Source of the DNA: Thermoplasmata archaeon
GTDB lineage: Archaea > Thermoplasmatota > Thermoplasmata > Thermoplasmatales > Thermoplasmataceae
Reading direction: 5' to 3'
NCBI GenBank assembly: GCA_021806295.1
Contig: JAJZXS010000048.1
Location: 62,001 to 126,000 of the forward strand
DNA: 64,000 bases
This document shows, piece by piece, positions 43,057-62,317 of this stretch. Numbering within the stretch: position 1 is the stretch's first letter; every line of letters starts with the position of its first letter. Below the pieces are notes generated by a model. The model saw nothing but the letters and a program-made list of their open reading frames with translations. It made no database searches and was not told the DNA's origin. Position numbers and translations under genes: made by a program.

Positions 43057-43551
43057 ATGGAAAAAATATTCTATGTTTACATGAACCAGGATGATCCTAA
43101 AAAATCTACAATGAAAAAACTTGAAAGATACGGTCTGGCAACACATATTCCAATAAATAAAATTTACAGTAAACTATATCTGACCCCATATTCAGAAAAT
43201 TTCCTTCTAAATTCAGACAAAGAACTGTATGAAAGGCATGGTATTGTTGTAATCGATGGTTCATGGAACAGAATAAGCTCTATTGAAAATATAGGGGCGA
43301 AGAATGGCAGAAAACTTCCTCTTCTGTTGCCGGTAAATCCGGTTAATTATGGAAAACCCGGGAAACTATCATCTCTGGAGGCACTTGCAGCGGCCCTGTA
43401 TATTATGGGTTATACTGATTTAGCCTATGAATTTATCTCTAAATATTCATGGGCACAGAACTTTATCAAAACTAATATCAATCCATTAAATGACTATTCA
43501 GAGTGCACTACAAATGATCAGTGCATTGCTGTGCAGGAAAGTTATTTCTAA
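43057..43551 (+). CDS. tsr3: Tsr3-like 16S/18S rRNA aminocarboxypropyltransferase
   Basis: Tsr3 transfers the 3-amino-3-carboxypropyl group of SAM to a hypermodified pseudouridine of the small-subunit rRNA. The 164-residue protein shows VIDGSWNRI (the family DxSW motif), the RKLPLLLPVNPVNYGKPGKLSSLEALAAALYIMGY block that forms the SAM pocket, and F-I-K-T-N-I-N-P-L-N-D-Y near the end, all typical. It converges on the PP-loop gene with a 4-bp overlap. A well-placed TATA-like box supports the start. Confidence 0.9.
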   Translation: MEKIFYVYMNQDDPKKSTMKKLERYGLATHIPINKIYSKLYLTPYSENFLLNSDKELYERHGIVVIDGSWNRISSIENIGAKNGRKLPLLLPVNPVNYGKPGKLSSLEALAAALYIMGYTDLAYEFISKYSWAQNFIKTNINPLNDYSECTTNDQCIAVQESYF

Positions 43552-44957
43552 ACCTTCACCCATATATTATCCTTTAGCTCATACTTACCATCCGTATACC
43601 TGGACAAAATTTTCTTTATAGAATGCCTGAAATTTTCCGGCACTGCTGACAGCACATCTTCTTCATAGGGCATTATATGCATTCCTGCAACGTGGTTTAT
43701 TTCCATGCTTCCATTTTCAGAAAATCCGAGCTTATATTCTGCATACTGTCTCTCGTCCGGGTCCAACCTTAACCGGGATTTTAAAAGCCTTCGCCCGAGC
43801 AGCCTCATATCTGTATCAGAATACATAATATCCCTGGGGTCACCACCTGCAGATTCTATAAATAATAAAATACCAAGGCATTTAGAGCACTTTCCACATG
43901 GATAAATAACACCATCTTTTTCATGGCAGGAGTGGCATGATCGTTGCTGGAGGAACAGGTTTCTATACCTTTCCATTAGTATTCTTTCTTCAACGTATCC
44001 AGTTACCGGATAAACTATGGAGTAAACATTGCTATTTATCCCCTTATCACGGAAATAAACAGAAACCATCCGGTTGAAGTCATATGTCTGATCAAATATA
44101 CCATAATAATACTTCAGGCCCCTGTAATCCCCCATGCCACGTGGATCATCAAACTCATCACCCATTATGATGTTTCCTATTTTATGTTTCCTGATCATCG
44201 GAAGAAGAAGGAATATGTACAGGGGAAAGATGAATACCTGTATGGGATAGTCATCTGATCTTATATCTATCATTTCCTGTTTGATTATTTTCAGATGTTT
44301 TAAAGCTTCATGATAGAACCTATCAGTGTTTGACCAGACCTTCATTACATTGCCGAAGTTGGTCCTGTAGTAATCATATGCTGTCTTTGCAGTTAGCCAG
44401 TGGGAACCAGATTCTTCAAAATAAAATGCATAGTTATTTTCTTTCATGTTTATTTCGTTGAATATTCCGAATGCCAGAAGGCTTTCCTTTCCCCCGGATG
44501 ACATTATTGCAACCTTTTCCCTGTCAGTAATCCAGGGATTTCCATCTTTTACGATTTCCGGGCATACAAGTTCTGTGATTCCATCTGCGTTTTCTTTGTT
44601 TATGTCGCTTTCTGATGGAATAAATTCTGGTTTGATATAATCATATCTCCTGTTAATTATCTTATTAATGAATACCTCATGGGCATTTATGACCATGAAA
44701 TCCTTTATAAGTTTTATATCCAGCTGGCTGACCGGAAAATTCAGTATGAGCTTTCTGGAGAAATATGTGTAATTTATTGCCGGCATTGTAAGTATTAATC
44801 CGGCTATATTCCTGTCCACATCTATATCCTCTGCGTATGTAAAAATTAACCTGTAACTGAAATCATCAAGCTTTATGTACCCTGTTATTCTGCGTTTTTC
44901 TATTTTATCTATGCTGACCTCTATATTATTGAAAGAAATTATGTTATCTATGTACAT
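43548..44957 (-). CDS. PP-loop ATPase with C-terminal Cys cluster, MurL-like
   Basis: Residues 154-159 read SGGKES, a PP-loop ATP-pyrophosphatase motif. The C-terminal half has MGDEFDD, a PVTGYVEERI segment and a cysteine cluster (Cys341, 344, 354, 357, 360; CGKCSKCLGILLFI) that probably binds zinc or a cluster. This order resembles, from memory, MurL, the ATP-dependent enzyme that epimerises the terminal L-Glu of UDP-MurNAc-L-Ala-L-Glu; the first 150 residues form a beta-rich domain as in that family. The organism should have no peptidoglycan, so the substrate must differ. It is the last gene of the DTD2/PLP/DUF1611 cluster. Function remains inference. Confidence 0.6.
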   Translation of the reverse strand: MYIDNIISFNNIEVSIDKIEKRRITGYIKLDDFSYRLIFTYAEDIDVDRNIAGLILTMPAINYTYFSRKLILNFPVSQLDIKLIKDFMVINAHEVFINKIINRRYDYIKPEFIPSESDINKENADGITELVCPEIVKDGNPWITDREKVAIMSSGGKESLLAFGIFNEINMKENNYAFYFEESGSHWLTAKTAYDYYRTNFGNVMKVWSNTDRFYHEALKHLKIIKQEMIDIRSDDYPIQVFIFPLYIFLLLPMIRKHKIGNIIMGDEFDDPRGMGDYRGLKYYYGIFDQTYDFNRMVSVYFRDKGINSNVYSIVYPVTGYVEERILMERYRNLFLQQRSCHSCHEKDGVIYPCGKCSKCLGILLFIESAGGDPRDIMYSDTDMRLLGRRLLKSRLRLDPDERQYAEYKLGFSENGSMEINHVAGMHIMPYEEDVLSAVPENFRHSIKKILSRYTDGKYELKDNIWVKV

Positions 44958-44987
44958 CTATTCCCCTATGTATAATGTAACAGACGT

Positions 44988-46016
44988 TTATAAATCTGAT
45001 ATAACGCCTGTAATGCTTTCGAATTCCTGGAGAGGGTCAAAAACAGGTATTCCGTACTGTCTTTCCAGTTTTACCTTTTCATTATCTATCTCATAGGACT
45101 CCATGTTTTCGGTGTTAAGGGATATTGCAATTACCTTCTTGCTGGAGACAAGTTCAAGTACCTTTATATATTTGTCCAGCGGCTCTATGGGGAATTCAGG
45201 GAATCCATCATAATATTTCCTTTTTGGTGCATGCTGGAGTATAATAGCATCCGGCCTCATTGCCCCTATGATCTCGAACCCTCCGGGATATGCAGGATGA
45301 AGTATAGACCCCTGCCCCTCAAGGAACATGTACTGGGGGTGCTTTTCCTGCCATGCCCTATAAGTTATGTACTCCAGGGAACCTGCAACAAAATCATTTA
45401 TTATTGAATCCATGACAACTGTGTACGGAAACCCCTGCATCCATGATGTTTGGCCAGTGCCGATCAGTTCTGAACTTTTTCCCTGCCTGTTCATGGCATC
45501 GTTCAGATAGACAGCAGTAGTTCTTTTACCTATTGCACTATCAGTTCCGAGCACTGCTATTTTTTTGGATTTTACCTCTTCAATCTTTCCTGTAAACGAA
45601 TACTCATAACCATTGAACATCTTCCTTACATCCGTTATCTGAACGTGGTTTTTCTGGGCCATCCTGCTGAACTCACGGTCATTGCTGATATACTGGTGCA
45701 GCCCACTGACAATGTTCATTCCACTTTCTATTGCATCTGAAACAAATTTTCTGTATTCTACCGGGAGATACCCGCCGTCTGTTGCAACGCCGACTATCAT
45801 TGTTGTTGCTCCAAGATTCTTTGCCTCCTGTACAGTACTTACAATTCTTATGCCATCCTGCCTGCCCATGAGGACATATCCAGCATCCATGCCGTAATAT
45901 CTTGAATCTATTACAGATACAATTTCATATCTTTTACTGTACCGTACAAGTCCATTGGCCGTTTTACCGTATGTTGTTGCAAAACATCCCTCAGAGAGAA
46001 TCACTGCCTTTTCCAT
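44988..46016 (-). CDS. DUF1611 family protein (DgcN-like)
   Basis: This 342-residue protein has two parts: an N-terminal Rossmann-like domain (residues 1-130) and a P-loop domain starting KKIAVLGTDSAIGKRT (Walker A, residues 157-166), followed by TGQTSWMQGFPYTVVMDSI and LEGQGSILHPAYPGG, the standard DUF1611 block. Some bacterial DUF1611 proteins (DgcN) act as D-glutamate N-acetyltransferases paired with the epimerase DgcA. No DgcA-type epimerase is adjacent here; instead a MurL-like protein follows. The start overlaps the PLP-enzyme stop by one base, so translation is coupled. Confidence 0.85.
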   Translation of the reverse strand: MEKAVILSEGCFATTYGKTANGLVRYSKRYEIVSVIDSRYYGMDAGYVLMGRQDGIRIVSTVQEAKNLGATTMIVGVATDGGYLPVEYRKFVSDAIESGMNIVSGLHQYISNDREFSRMAQKNHVQITDVRKMFNGYEYSFTGKIEEVKSKKIAVLGTDSAIGKRTTAVYLNDAMNRQGKSSELIGTGQTSWMQGFPYTVVMDSIINDFVAGSLEYITYRAWQEKHPQYMFLEGQGSILHPAYPGGFEIIGAMRPDAIILQHAPKRKYYDGFPEFPIEPLDKYIKVLELVSSKKVIAISLNTENMESYEIDNEKVKLERQYGIPVFDPLQEFESITGVISDL

Positions 46017-46969
46017 TATTTATCACTTCCAGTTAACACTATCACACAACTTTTATTTCCAGCATATTTTAACGCAGTCAAAGCGGCTGAAGCTGATGCA
46101 GGCAGTACCGATAGATGGTCTACCTCCCTGAACCCTCTGGCCATATCTATCATGTCCTCATCTGATACATATGATGCTTTGCCCCCTGTTTTATAAAGCA
46201 CATCCAGTGCCTTCTGGCCATCATATGACCTGTATGCTATCAGTGGCTCATTGCTATGTGTTTCCACTATACTATTCTGATCAAGTTCGACCACCCTCCT
46301 GAACCCATTGATGAATGAATAAACCACCGGATTGCCACCGTCTGTACTGGATGCTATAAACGATGGTATTTTATCAGACCTTCCACTTCTCATCAATTTG
46401 AGGAACCCATAATATATGCCGTACATTGTTGTTCCATTTCCAACCGGTACGGAAACATAATCAGGGGCAAATCCCAGCTGCTCGTAAATTTCATATGCTA
46501 TTTCACTGTAGCCTGCCACATCCAGATCCCTGTTCTGTGAACCGGGGCTTGCATCATACCAGCCATTTTTGCCGGCTTCATCCCTAATATACTCAACCAT
46601 CTCCTCATATTTGAGTGGTTTTTCTATGACCTCTGCACCGTATGCGGCTATCTCTGCATATCTTGAATTTGAATATTCGGATGGAATTCCCACAATAGCT
46701 TTTATGCCCATTGCCCTTGCGTAATATGCTATGGATGCACCATAGTTTCCGCAGGTTGCCACAGATATTTCGCTGTAACCTTTCTCTATGGCATTTTCAA
46801 CATGTTTTTTAGAAATTCTATCCTTCTGGGTTCCTGTAGGATTTACGCCTTCATATTTTAGGAAAAAATTACTATTTCCAAGATAATTACCAATATCAAA
46901 ATCCCTGATTAACGGGCTACCTGGAGGTTTATCTTCAGTTTCTATTTCCATTTTTTTCACTGATACCAT
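46016..46969 (-). CDS. Fold-type II PLP enzyme, threonine-synthase/racemase-like
   Basis: Lys49 in PTGTQKDRI is the predicted Schiff-base lysine of this TrpB-like PLP enzyme. VATCGNYGASIAYYA forms the substrate loop and VPVGNGTTMYGIYYGF holds the phosphate-binding Gly-rich stretch. Closest in style are threonine synthases, but its 318 residues make it shorter than most, and threonine dehydratase, serine racemase or cysteate-synthase-like activities are equally possible. A longer frame begins at 47017, but a TATA-like element (about 46984-46991) lies inside it, so I use the ATG at 46969; a Met six codons later is an option. It overlaps the DUF1611 gene by one base. Confidence 0.8.
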   Translation of the reverse strand: MVSVKKMEIETEDKPPGSPLIRDFDIGNYLGNSNFFLKYEGVNPTGTQKDRISKKHVENAIEKGYSEISVATCGNYGASIAYYARAMGIKAIVGIPSEYSNSRYAEIAAYGAEVIEKPLKYEEMVEYIRDEAGKNGWYDASPGSQNRDLDVAGYSEIAYEIYEQLGFAPDYVSVPVGNGTTMYGIYYGFLKLMRSGRSDKIPSFIASSTDGGNPVVYSFINGFRRVVELDQNSIVETHSNEPLIAYRSYDGQKALDVLYKTGGKASYVSDEDMIDMARGFREVDHLSVLPASASAALTALKYAGNKSCVIVLTGSDK

Positions 46970-47110
46970 TATAATATTAATTACTATATAAACATTGAGT
47001 ATGCAATGGTTTACCATGGCAATGTCAATTATTTATGTAAACACCGGATAAAATTATTCTTTATCCTTTTCTAATAGACTTCCCGCTTAAGAGTTAAAAT
47101 TTAGAAAAAA

Positions 47111-47884
47111 TCATATCCTTATAATTTCAAGATTCATTCTATCTGCTATTGTTCCTATCATGTCCTTAACCCTGCCCTTAGTGCCATGAGCGTCCATTAG
47201 GAATCCTTTACATTCTGGTGTTTCCTTTACTGTATTTTCTATTTCTTCCATGGATATTATTTCGTGGGTGTATTTCGGGATTATATGCCCTATGTTTATT
47301 TCATTTTCAAAAAAATACGTGCTGAGTTTAGGTGCATAATGGCCACCTCCCACACCAACATAATTGCTATATTTTTTTATTTCGCCTCCTATTACAGACT
47401 TTGCCATTAATTCTGCTATTCCATCCATTTTCCACTCTTTTTCGGTTGTGCCTATCTCGATAAAGTATGATGGTTTTTCCAGATAAGGGCCATGGTGTGT
47501 CGCCTCAAACGTAATTTCAAAGTAGTTTCCATGATAGTTGCTTTTTATATATCTGAGTGAGGCACCCATACCCTCAGGGTCAGAAGGCACTATTACATTA
47601 TCAAACCCGCCAAGTTCTGCCTTCCTTAAATTTCCCACTGGATGTACTGTAAGTGATTTAACCCCTGCACTGGATGAATGTTTGGATAGAAATACCACTT
47701 TTTCAATCGAATCATCCAGATTCTCCATATCCCTGTAGATATGTAAAGCATCAATAAAAAGCAGTTTATAATTTCTGTATGTAAATGTGTCAGCATTTTC
47801 CTGCCTGAAATTATACAGGTGAATCATTTTATCTGCCATTTCCATGCTGGCACCATCTTTCCTGGATGCAATAATTAAAATCAT
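47111..47884 (-). CDS. dtdA: D-aminoacyl-tRNA deacylase, archaeal type (DTD2)
   Basis: This enzyme removes D-amino acids wrongly attached to tRNA, protecting translation. The archaeal/plant DTD2 (GEK1-like) family is recognised from VVFLSKHSSSAG, ITFEATHHGPYL and the VGVGGGHYAPK block that binds metal and the tRNA end. The 257-residue length is normal. It is divergent from the surface protein gene at 47968 and lies 142 bp upstream of the PLP-enzyme gene on the same strand. That gap and the TATA-like element in it suggest separate promoters, but all four genes point the same way. Confidence 0.93.
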   Translation of the reverse strand: MILIIASRKDGASMEMADKMIHLYNFRQENADTFTYRNYKLLFIDALHIYRDMENLDDSIEKVVFLSKHSSSAGVKSLTVHPVGNLRKAELGGFDNVIVPSDPEGMGASLRYIKSNYHGNYFEITFEATHHGPYLEKPSYFIEIGTTEKEWKMDGIAELMAKSVIGGEIKKYSNYVGVGGGHYAPKLSTYFFENEINIGHIIPKYTHEIISMEEIENTVKETPECKGFLMDAHGTKGRVKDMIGTIADRMNLEIIRI

Positions 47885-59959: not shown

Positions 59960-62317
59960 ATGACATCCAGCATGCCTGATCCTGAAACATATCCCAAAAA
60001 ACCGAGATCAACTAGGAAAAAATGGTATGCAATTATAATAGTCCTAATAGTGGTTCTTTCTTCATTCGCAATACTCTCTCTTCTCCATCCATCAAGGCTT
60101 GAACCTGCAATAAACGTGGATTCTGCCCAGAACTACATTTCCCCCGGAGAAAATTATACTCTTATCCTCCAATCTGATGAGGCTTACAGGAATATTACAG
60201 TAGAATGGGGTGATAATACCGAAACTGCTATGAATTATACCGGCAGTACTTTATCAATATCACACATCTACACCAGTCCAGGTATATACTATATTTATTA
60301 CTGGGCAAACTTTTCATCTGGTTTGTACAGATCAAATACATATATACCTGTATATGTTGAAAACCAGGTGTCATCAAATAGAACGGCAGATGGAATTATT
60401 ACCGTCCTCAATTCATCAATTCCTTCTGTGGTTTCAAATTCGAATATATATGCCCCGGGCACTGCCTTAAATATCAGCATAGGCAATACTGGCTGCCCTG
60501 TTAACTCCACATTTAATATAATCAGCCAATCATTAACAATTTTCCGTAACGGAACCATGGAACAGAACAAATCAGGGCATTCAACATACAGTTTAAATCT
60601 GCAGTCCGGGTATTATATCCTCAAACTTATCACCGTAACAGGCAATGGAACTACAAATTATACATCTGCCTACTATATGGATATACCGGTCAATCCCAAT
60701 GCAGTATTATACATTAACACTGTTACAGATTCCATCGTTGTTGATAGCCTCAATCCCTATTCCAACCTTAACCCGCAGGAGGCATATACAACCGGAGACC
60801 TGGAAATACTTTACAACACAGAACAATTCCTTGTTGGAAACAGTACATCTGGATACTTCCCGGAAATTGCATCCAGCCTCCCCGGGCCAGATGGGAACAG
60901 TTATACATTCAATATAAGCCATAATGTCAGGTTCCAGAATGGTGTTACGGTGAACGCATACGACGTGTACTATTCACTGGTAATGGATCTTCTCCTGGAG
61001 AATAAATCACCACAAACCCCGGGATGGATCCTGGCACAGTACCTTCTGCCCGGGAATTATCATGAAACCAATAATTATACAAATATTATGAATGCCATAA
61101 CGTACAGCAACAGTACAGACACGGTGACACTTAACTTTACGGTGCATCTAAGCCCTAACAGGGTCTATGGCCTGCTCTCATCCCCAGGTGCATTCATATC
61201 ATCTGCCGCAAACCTGAGTAGCAATGGCGAGGCCATATCGTTCACCGCCTCAGGTTTCCGGGCTTTCAAATTATCAAACTCGAATTATACAATGGAAAAT
61301 ATACTCGCTGACGGCCCATACGAGATAGAGAAATCGGTGCCAGGAAAGTATATCACACTGATCCGCAACCCAGAATTTACCGGCACTTCAAAGAATAGGG
61401 CACCCTCCATGGATTCTGTCACAATAGACTACAGGAACAGTTATTCAACTATATACCAGGACATAAGGTTCAACACATCCCAGATAGGTGCGTTTCCATC
61501 TTCTTACACATATTTGTCAGGGCTATCCGGGCTATCCACATATAATGTTACCTATAACCTGTCAACATTATACAGTTTCAATGCAAATATAAATACAACA
61601 CTTCTGGGGAAATTTGTCACAGATGCAAATGTTCCACACAATTTATTTTCCAATATAACGGTCAGGGAAGCATTTTATGAGGCTTACCCGGGGAACAATT
61701 TATCCCTGGCAAAAATCCTGTGGCATTCATTCATAACTAACTCTACAGAAGACTCAAAATATAATATTACCAGCAATTCAAATTACAAGGGTAGCCCGCT
61801 GGTTATACCTCTGTTCACAGAAACAGGAATCTCCGGATCCAATATATCAGAATTTTCCAGCAATCTCAAGGACATGGTGGGCAATGATTCAAGCTTCCCA
61901 ATAGTAACTGAGCCCGTAACTTTTATGAACACATATATATCAGCCGGAATTAATCCCATGCCGGTTTACGAGGAAACATTACCTGAAATGAACTCAACCA
62001 TTTATTATTCATATCTGGGCAATACACAAAATTATACACATGCTTATGCTAATGGATTCTATTATTATGCATTTAACATTTCAAATAAAAATCAATCAGT
62101 TTTAATGAACGCCCTTAATTCAAATATTACCATCCTGATTCAGAATTATAACAGTACAAATTTAGGAAATGTAAAAACATTGATTAACAGTACTTATATG
62201 TATATATTGCCATCTCATGGAAGGGTAGAAATGAAAATTTATTACCAGCCATACCTAACTATGAAAAACAGTATAACAGGATCTGGAATTCTGCTTTTCA
62301 ATTATATAAAGGGATGA
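59960..62317 (+). CDS. Membrane-anchored oligopeptide-binding protein with PKD domain
   Basis: An N-terminal signal anchor (hydrophobic residues 22-44, preceded by a basic stretch) leads to a PKD-like immunoglobulin fold (residues 50-135; ITVEWGDNTETAMNYTGSTL and SHIYTSPGIYYIYYW match PKD WGD...H-x-Y motifs). A second beta domain follows, then an SBP_bac_5 solute-binding domain from about residue 250 (LNPQEAYTTGDLEILYNTEQF, FNISHNVRFQNGVTVNAYDVYYS). The 785-residue protein is rich in Asn/Ser/Thr sequons and outside the cell. It probably captures peptides for an ABC importer; the convergent genes at its 3' end encode ABC-like components. Confidence 0.8.
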   Translation: MTSSMPDPETYPKKPRSTRKKWYAIIIVLIVVLSSFAILSLLHPSRLEPAINVDSAQNYISPGENYTLILQSDEAYRNITVEWGDNTETAMNYTGSTLSISHIYTSPGIYYIYYWANFSSGLYRSNTYIPVYVENQVSSNRTADGIITVLNSSIPSVVSNSNIYAPGTALNISIGNTGCPVNSTFNIISQSLTIFRNGTMEQNKSGHSTYSLNLQSGYYILKLITVTGNGTTNYTSAYYMDIPVNPNAVLYINTVTDSIVVDSLNPYSNLNPQEAYTTGDLEILYNTEQFLVGNSTSGYFPEIASSLPGPDGNSYTFNISHNVRFQNGVTVNAYDVYYSLVMDLLLENKSPQTPGWILAQYLLPGNYHETNNYTNIMNAITYSNSTDTVTLNFTVHLSPNRVYGLLSSPGAFISSAANLSSNGEAISFTASGFRAFKLSNSNYTMENILADGPYEIEKSVPGKYITLIRNPEFTGTSKNRAPSMDSVTIDYRNSYSTIYQDIRFNTSQIGAFPSSYTYLSGLSGLSTYNVTYNLSTLYSFNANINTTLLGKFVTDANVPHNLFSNITVREAFYEAYPGNNLSLAKILWHSFITNSTEDSKYNITSNSNYKGSPLVIPLFTETGISGSNISEFSSNLKDMVGNDSSFPIVTEPVTFMNTYISAGINPMPVYEETLPEMNSTIYYSYLGNTQNYTHAYANGFYYYAFNISNKNQSVLMNALNSNITILIQNYNSTNLGNVKTLINSTYMYILPSHGRVEMKIYYQPYLTMKNSITGSGILLFNYIKG

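Follow-up and report, generated by a model that had tools for sequence, protein, structure and literature searches.

MurL turns a terminal L-Glu into D-Glu, using one ATP and yielding AMP (PMC8788868). It adenylates the glutamate that it inverts, and it serves cell walls of some bacteria. Its reaction mechanism has been called unclear because the protein was without known domains (PMC5808125). QueC, QatC and Cap9 belong to the QueC superfamily (PMC13329287, PMC13279940), and QatC is part of the qatABCD defence system. DgcN and DgcA combine a D-glutamate N-acetyltransferase with an enolase-type N-acetyl-D-Glu racemase, and YkfB (PDB 1jpm) is an L-Ala-D/L-Glu dipeptide epimerase. A relative of MurL and QatC and a distant relative of DgcN are encoded next to each other in a gene cluster of a Thermoplasmata archaeon of the family Thermoplasmataceae (GenBank assembly GCA_021806295.1). 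The cluster lies in a stretch of 64,000 nucleotides, here called the window, which covers positions 62,001 to 126,000 of the forward strand of contig JAJZXS010000048.1.

Three genes of this cluster, for a pyridoxal phosphate (PLP) enzyme, a DUF1611 protein and a PP-loop protein, form an operon. The explanation favoured here, tentatively, is that the operon is an uncharacterised archaeal module for one small-molecule pathway, which acylates an amino acid or dipeptide, then activates its carboxyl group and possibly epimerises it. An initial annotation had grouped the three genes with a DTD2 gene and proposed a D-amino-acid theme, with D-glutamate or another D-amino acid possibly being handled or made.

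Operon structure and conservation

The PLP enzyme, the DUF1611 protein and the PP-loop protein are encoded in this order by one operon with its own conserved promoter:

46985..46992, minus strand: archaeal TATA box TTTATATA of the PLP-DUF1611-PP operon, within the invariant block CAATGTTTATATA (alignment of five Ferroplasma-group genomes)
46016..46951, minus strand: PLP fold-type II enzyme of the PRK06381 'threonine synthase' group, the third ThrC paralogue of the genome
44988..46016, minus strand: DUF1611 / COG3367 protein, 342 aa, with a Rossmann-like N-domain and a P-loop domain (Walker A GTDSAIGKRT)
43548..44957, minus strand: PP-loop protein, 469 aa, with a beta/alpha domain at the N-terminus, the PP-loop SSGGKES (residues 153-159) and, towards the C-terminus, the Cys motif C341-x2-C344-x9-C354-x2-C357-x2-C360; putatively a new group of the QueC superfamily with MurL and QatC as relatives

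The four minus-strand open reading frames of the initial annotation, these three and DTD2, are real and correctly placed. The PLP and DUF1611 genes overlap by 1 bp (46016), a gap of 30 bp (44958-44987) separates the DUF1611 and PP-loop genes, and the Walker A motif is intact, all as first described. The start of the PLP gene is revised. The ATG at 46969 is an unlikely start, since it is missing in some close relatives (L111, L112 and others); the ATG at 46951 (MEIETEDKPPG), 18 bp downstream, fits the relatives better, lies 3' of the TATA box and is probably the start. The alternative ATGs are those at 46969 and 47017. The TATA box block is invariant in 5/5 Ferroplasma-group genomes.

Gene order and strand (PLP > DUF1611 > PP) are kept throughout the Thermoplasmataceae. 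The same order recurs in distant Thermoplasmatota families (f16, f23, f24, f36 and f46; 30-47% identity) and in Candidatus Bathyarchaeota (L171, L173, L177 and L186). Of 80 named loci, 76 could be scored for DUF1611, and in 74 of these it stands immediately upstream of the PP-loop gene (the scripted count is 70/76, having rejected the four overlapping pairs L137, L181, L188 and L189); the PLP gene is likewise directly upstream in 62 of 70. Families f3 and f4 mostly have no adjacent PLP gene, though one is usually found elsewhere in the same genome. Co-occurrence gives the same picture: across 390 genomes of the phylum, 66 carry the PP-loop gene, and these include the PLP gene in 63 cases and DUF1611 in 65, a pattern that holds beyond the window's own family. 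The three genes are a real functional unit. The neighbourhood survey that the initial annotation had called for thus finds the DUF1611 and PP-loop genes co-conserved with the PLP gene in both Thermoplasmatota and Bathyarchaeota.

Other genes recur beside the unit. A GNAT gene alone adjoins the PP-loop gene in Bathyarchaeota, in other Thermoplasmatota and on a Myxococcales contig, and in family f24 the remote operon copies face a convergent block made up of enolase epimerase, M14 peptidase and GNAT genes. The Myxococcales contig (L174:7929-9422) carries the PP-family gene and the GNAT gene with no DUF1611 or PLP gene nearby, which may point to a PP-family member in bacteria or to a mistake in binning. 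Operons of PLP, DUF1611 and GNAT genes that lack the PP-loop gene occur in family f52 (L200:4080-6484 and L201:4232-6630) and are a possible variant of the pathway. A same-genus genome (G002, C43:10758-11236) holds a second PP-loop copy, broken by several stops. No relatives of the PP-loop protein were found in the viral contigs or plasmids searched.

The PP-loop protein and its relatives

Scans of Pfam and NCBIfam place the PP-loop protein in no curated family. Its PP-loop motif SSGGKES is intact and is kept in relatives; NESGxHW, WSNxDRFY, GxEFDDP and DQ are further motifs that do not vary. The AlphaFold model, a confident one (pLDDT 91.7), has as its best solved structure QatC (Foldseek 9y02_B, E 1e-4, prob 1.00, 458 columns, TM 0.43), followed by NcsA and LarE. 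The model aligns with QatC along its full length, N-terminal extension included, and so predicts a QatC-type fold, an N-terminal extension followed by a QueC core. Among PDB sequences, neither the PP family nor the MurL family gave a match with a significant E-value.

Profile comparison points to MurL. The MurL family was represented by two Myxococcota proteins, L192 and L193, and by the model NF041275 (cut-off 700 bits). The PP family matches the MurL-family profile with hhalign probability 96.5, E 1e-9 and score 79, and 60 column shuffles score no higher than 26; against E. coli QueC the score is 25 (probability 3%). The likeness spans the catalytic core, from the PP-loop (GGK[DE]SL) to the terminal Cys motif. 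The few matches that NF041275 gives in archaeal and myxococcal genomes include weak ones that fall within the PP family or close by: to L032 (E 0.0053), to the Myxococcales relative and to L031, a distant homologue (E 0.0005). The best PP-family member reaches 15 bits (E 0.0053), below the 700-bit cut-off. The core is therefore best described, on its sequence, as a QueC-superfamily ATP pyrophosphatase closest to MurL-family proteins, and the MurL link is one of core homology and likely chemistry, not of family membership. In some f24 genomes a second, MurL-like PP-loop protein is present (L031:437-1855, L213:2916-4151), with no DUF1611 or PLP gene seen near it.

The two Myxococcota proteins (L192:1444-2814, L193:1255-2733) carry the PP-loop CGGGKDSL and a QueC-type C-x6-CxxCxxC motif, which makes this branch of the MurL family one of PP-loop type. 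Such a PP-loop and Cys motif would explain MurL's turnover of ATP to AMP. MurL and the PP-loop protein are alike in the homologous core and in the expected ATP-dependent adenylating chemistry (PMC8788868, PMC5808125). They differ in the N-terminal domain, in a score far under the family cut-off and in operon partners, and UDP-MurNAc is not expected in wall-less archaea.

A possible but doubtful alternative is carboxyl-to-amide (or nitrile, or conjugate) chemistry with no change of chirality, in which the PP-loop protein would join an adenylated carboxylate to an amine in the manner of QueC, QatC or Cap9, giving an amide metabolite or a modified protein. The fold, the SGG-type PP-loop and the zinc-type Cys motif are shared with these enzymes (PMC13329287, PMC13279940), with QatC the best solved structure. 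In place of the QueC motifs SGGxDS and C(x)8CxxCxxC, the protein carries the variants SGGKES and C-x12-C-x2-C-x2-C. Several PP-family members also give weak PF06508 and PADLOC QueC matches, and the GNAT acetyltransferase gene that adjoins the PP-loop gene at the places named above would suit this chemistry. However, sequence similarity to these enzymes is weak, and the PP-loop sequence is closer to MurL than to E. coli QueC. The QueC catalytic and substrate-binding motifs YxQxHxxE, VPxRN and YPDC (PMC13329287) were not seen by eye in PP-family alignments, so 7-carboxy-7-deazaguanine (CDG) is an unlikely substrate. PADLOC assigns neither of the two window proteins scanned to a defence family. 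No qat or CBASS partner was recognised among the operon's recurrent neighbours (PLP, DUF1611, GNAT, enolase and M14), the flanking genes having been scanned against qat models only in part.

Partner enzymes and neighbouring genes

The PLP enzyme scores 176 bits with PF00291 and 402 bits with the NCBIfam equivalog NF004996 (PRK06381 'threonine synthase'; cut-off 266), and family scans give no racemase-specific match. The initial annotation had allowed that it might be an ordinary threonine synthase, and the operon would then be a housekeeping amino-acid cluster. The NF004996 score agrees with this, but the genome already holds a canonical ThrC (TIGR00260, 251 bits, cut-off 167) and a PRK06450 ThrC (451 bits, cut-off 301), and a role as sole threonine synthase is rejected on that ground. 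The motifs SFKDRG, ASTGNTSAS, RIEGQKT and PVGNAGN of the characterised Aquifex and Mycobacterium ThrC are replaced by TQKDRI, ATCGNYGAS, a stretch with no Arg, and PVGNGTT, and these substitutions speak against O-phosphohomoserine as the substrate. Nor would a ThrC be expected to co-occur almost perfectly with DUF1611 and PP-loop genes. A plain threonine synthase is thus quite unlikely here.

The DUF1611 protein matches PF07755 (207 bits) and PF17396 (91 bits), both above cut-off. Its Walker A motif GTDSAIGKRTT is nearly all invariant in 22 homologues. It shares fold and family with DgcN, to which it is distantly related, as it is to PDB 2g0t and 7xrj, but it scores 175 bits with the DgcN equivalog NF041892 (cut-off 480), and its operon partners are PLP and PP-loop enzymes. 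Pairs of DUF1611 and enolase-type epimerase, as in DgcN-DgcA, also exist elsewhere in Thermoplasmatota. At 40 other loci of the phylum where DUF1611 is not beside the PP-loop gene (L244, a repeat of L204, and L200 and L201 left out), it adjoins an enolase-superfamily epimerase in 16 and an Ala_racemase_N protein in 3, together 19/40; the other 21 have no recognised partner. Enolase partners match L-Ala-D/L-Glu epimerase models. In 19/19 enolase proteins examined, these 16 and three more beside the PP-loop gene, both catalytic lysines are conserved, as are the metal ligands and the D-L-D motif. None of the 19 has an Arg at the position of YkfB Arg24, a residue with a role in Glu specificity. 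The enolase-type neighbour of the remote operon copies resembles YkfB in both catalytic Lys, the metal ligands and the D-x-D motif, and differs in having Glu in place of Arg24.

The partners of DUF1611 thus alternate among an enolase-type epimerase, an Ala_racemase_N protein and the PLP-PP pair. This pattern and the MurL homology of the PP-loop core might suggest an analogue of DgcN-DgcA in which the enolase inverts D and L forms in DUF1611-enolase pairs and the MurL-like protein does so here, as an ATP-driven one-way epimerase. Five loci (L071, L072, L082, L087 and L090), however, carry both enolase and PP-loop genes, so the two are not alternatives there, and 21/40 DUF1611 loci have no recognised partner. 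Such a replacement is highly improbable.

Two further genes flank the operon:

47111..47884, minus strand: DTD2 D-aminoacyl-tRNA deacylase, a neighbour with a separate promoter region, outside the conserved module
43057..43551, plus strand: Ribo_biogen_C (Tsr3-type) gene, convergent with the PP-loop gene

DTD2 is recognised by PF04414 (194 bits, cut-off 33.6) and reaches 267 bits with NF003072 (cut-off 272). It lies within 4 kb of the operon in 39/58 loci, nearly all of them Thermoplasmataceae. In Thermoplasma it stands on the opposite side of the cluster, and it was not found near the operon in Bathyarchaeota or other families among the loci compared. It is probably a bystander, because it is close only in Thermoplasmataceae, and with its separate promoter region it is rejected as a member of the module. 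The four-gene set proposed at first therefore reduces to the three genes kept together across phyla, and a safeguarding role of DTD2 in the set finds no support. The Tsr3-type gene overlaps the 3' end of the PP-loop gene by 4 bp and adjoins it across most Thermoplasmataceae. It is a syntenic neighbour there and in one related family, and probably functionally unrelated.

The D-glutamate module of the initial annotation, in which DUF1611 N-acetylates D-Glu, glutamate comes from or is inverted by the PLP or the PP-loop enzyme, and DTD2 guards tRNA, is unlikely. It is consistent with the place of DUF1611 in the DgcN family, with the fit of the enolase partners to L-Ala-D/L-Glu epimerase models and with the action of MurL on L-Glu (PMC8788868). 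Against it stand the DgcN score of 175 bits, the absence of Arg at the YkfB Arg24 position in all 19 enolases, the lack of a DTD2 link outside one family and a PLP enzyme with no racemase-specific match. D-glutamate is a possibility, but not one that the evidence favours.

The wider chirality theme fares better and gains support of an independent kind: from the MurL-related PP-loop protein, from DUF1611 genes that often stand beside epimerases or racemases, and from the dipeptide-epimerase-like gene at remote operon copies. Its basis is thus DUF1611 together with the link to MurL, and DTD2 is no part of it. The accompanying remark, that Thermoplasmatales have no known pathway of this kind, has to be corrected. 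Among the references of PMC6047364 are works on D-amino acids and a PLP-dependent aspartate racemase in Thermoplasma acidophilum (Long 2001) and on the aspartate racemase of Picrophilus torridus (Aihara 2016).

Proposed pathway and its meaning

In the favoured small-molecule pathway, the substrates and products that we infer follow from the enzyme families. The ThrC-like PLP enzyme would make or rearrange an amino acid from an activated C3 or C4 amino acid. The DUF1611 protein would then modify that amino acid, most likely at the amino group, as its homologue DgcN does with acetyl-CoA. The PP-loop enzyme, whose motifs are intact, would bind ATP and adenylate the carboxyl group by the chemistry of its superfamily. 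The activated acid might be inverted from L to D at the alpha carbon, as by MurL, or enter an amide-type bond, as with QueC-like enzymes. Inversion is slightly preferred, at low confidence, because DUF1611 proteins elsewhere adjoin epimerases and racemases. The most specific form of this proposal, which we regard as possible but far from secure, is a pathway in which ATP drives the one-way epimerisation, from L to D, of an N-acylated amino acid or dipeptide. The PP-loop protein would then be a first archaeal MurL relative, with the third ThrC paralogue and the relative of DgcN as its partners in cell-wall-less archaea.

Several points weigh against this proposal. Homology within the QueC superfamily does not fix the reaction. 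L192 and L193 themselves score 109-121 bits against the MurL cut-off of 700 (E 1e-31 or better), and profile comparison found no homology between the N-terminal domains of the PP family and MurL. Five of the 390 genomes have the PLP gene without the PP-loop gene, so the PP-loop step is not always needed. The co-occurrence p-values ignore shared ancestry, which inflates them. In Ferroplasma the epimerase-like gene of the remote loci is not beside the operon.

The tight co-inheritance of these three enzymes in both Thermoplasmatota and Bathyarchaeota suggests a metabolite so far unrecorded in archaea. Through the PP-loop protein, MurL is connected to the QueC/QatC superfamily of ATP pyrophosphatases, which fits MurL's production of AMP. 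If an archaeal enzyme does invert chirality here, the operon would provide a specific biosynthetic route to D-amino acids in wall-less archaea, testable in culturable Ferroplasma or Thermoplasma.

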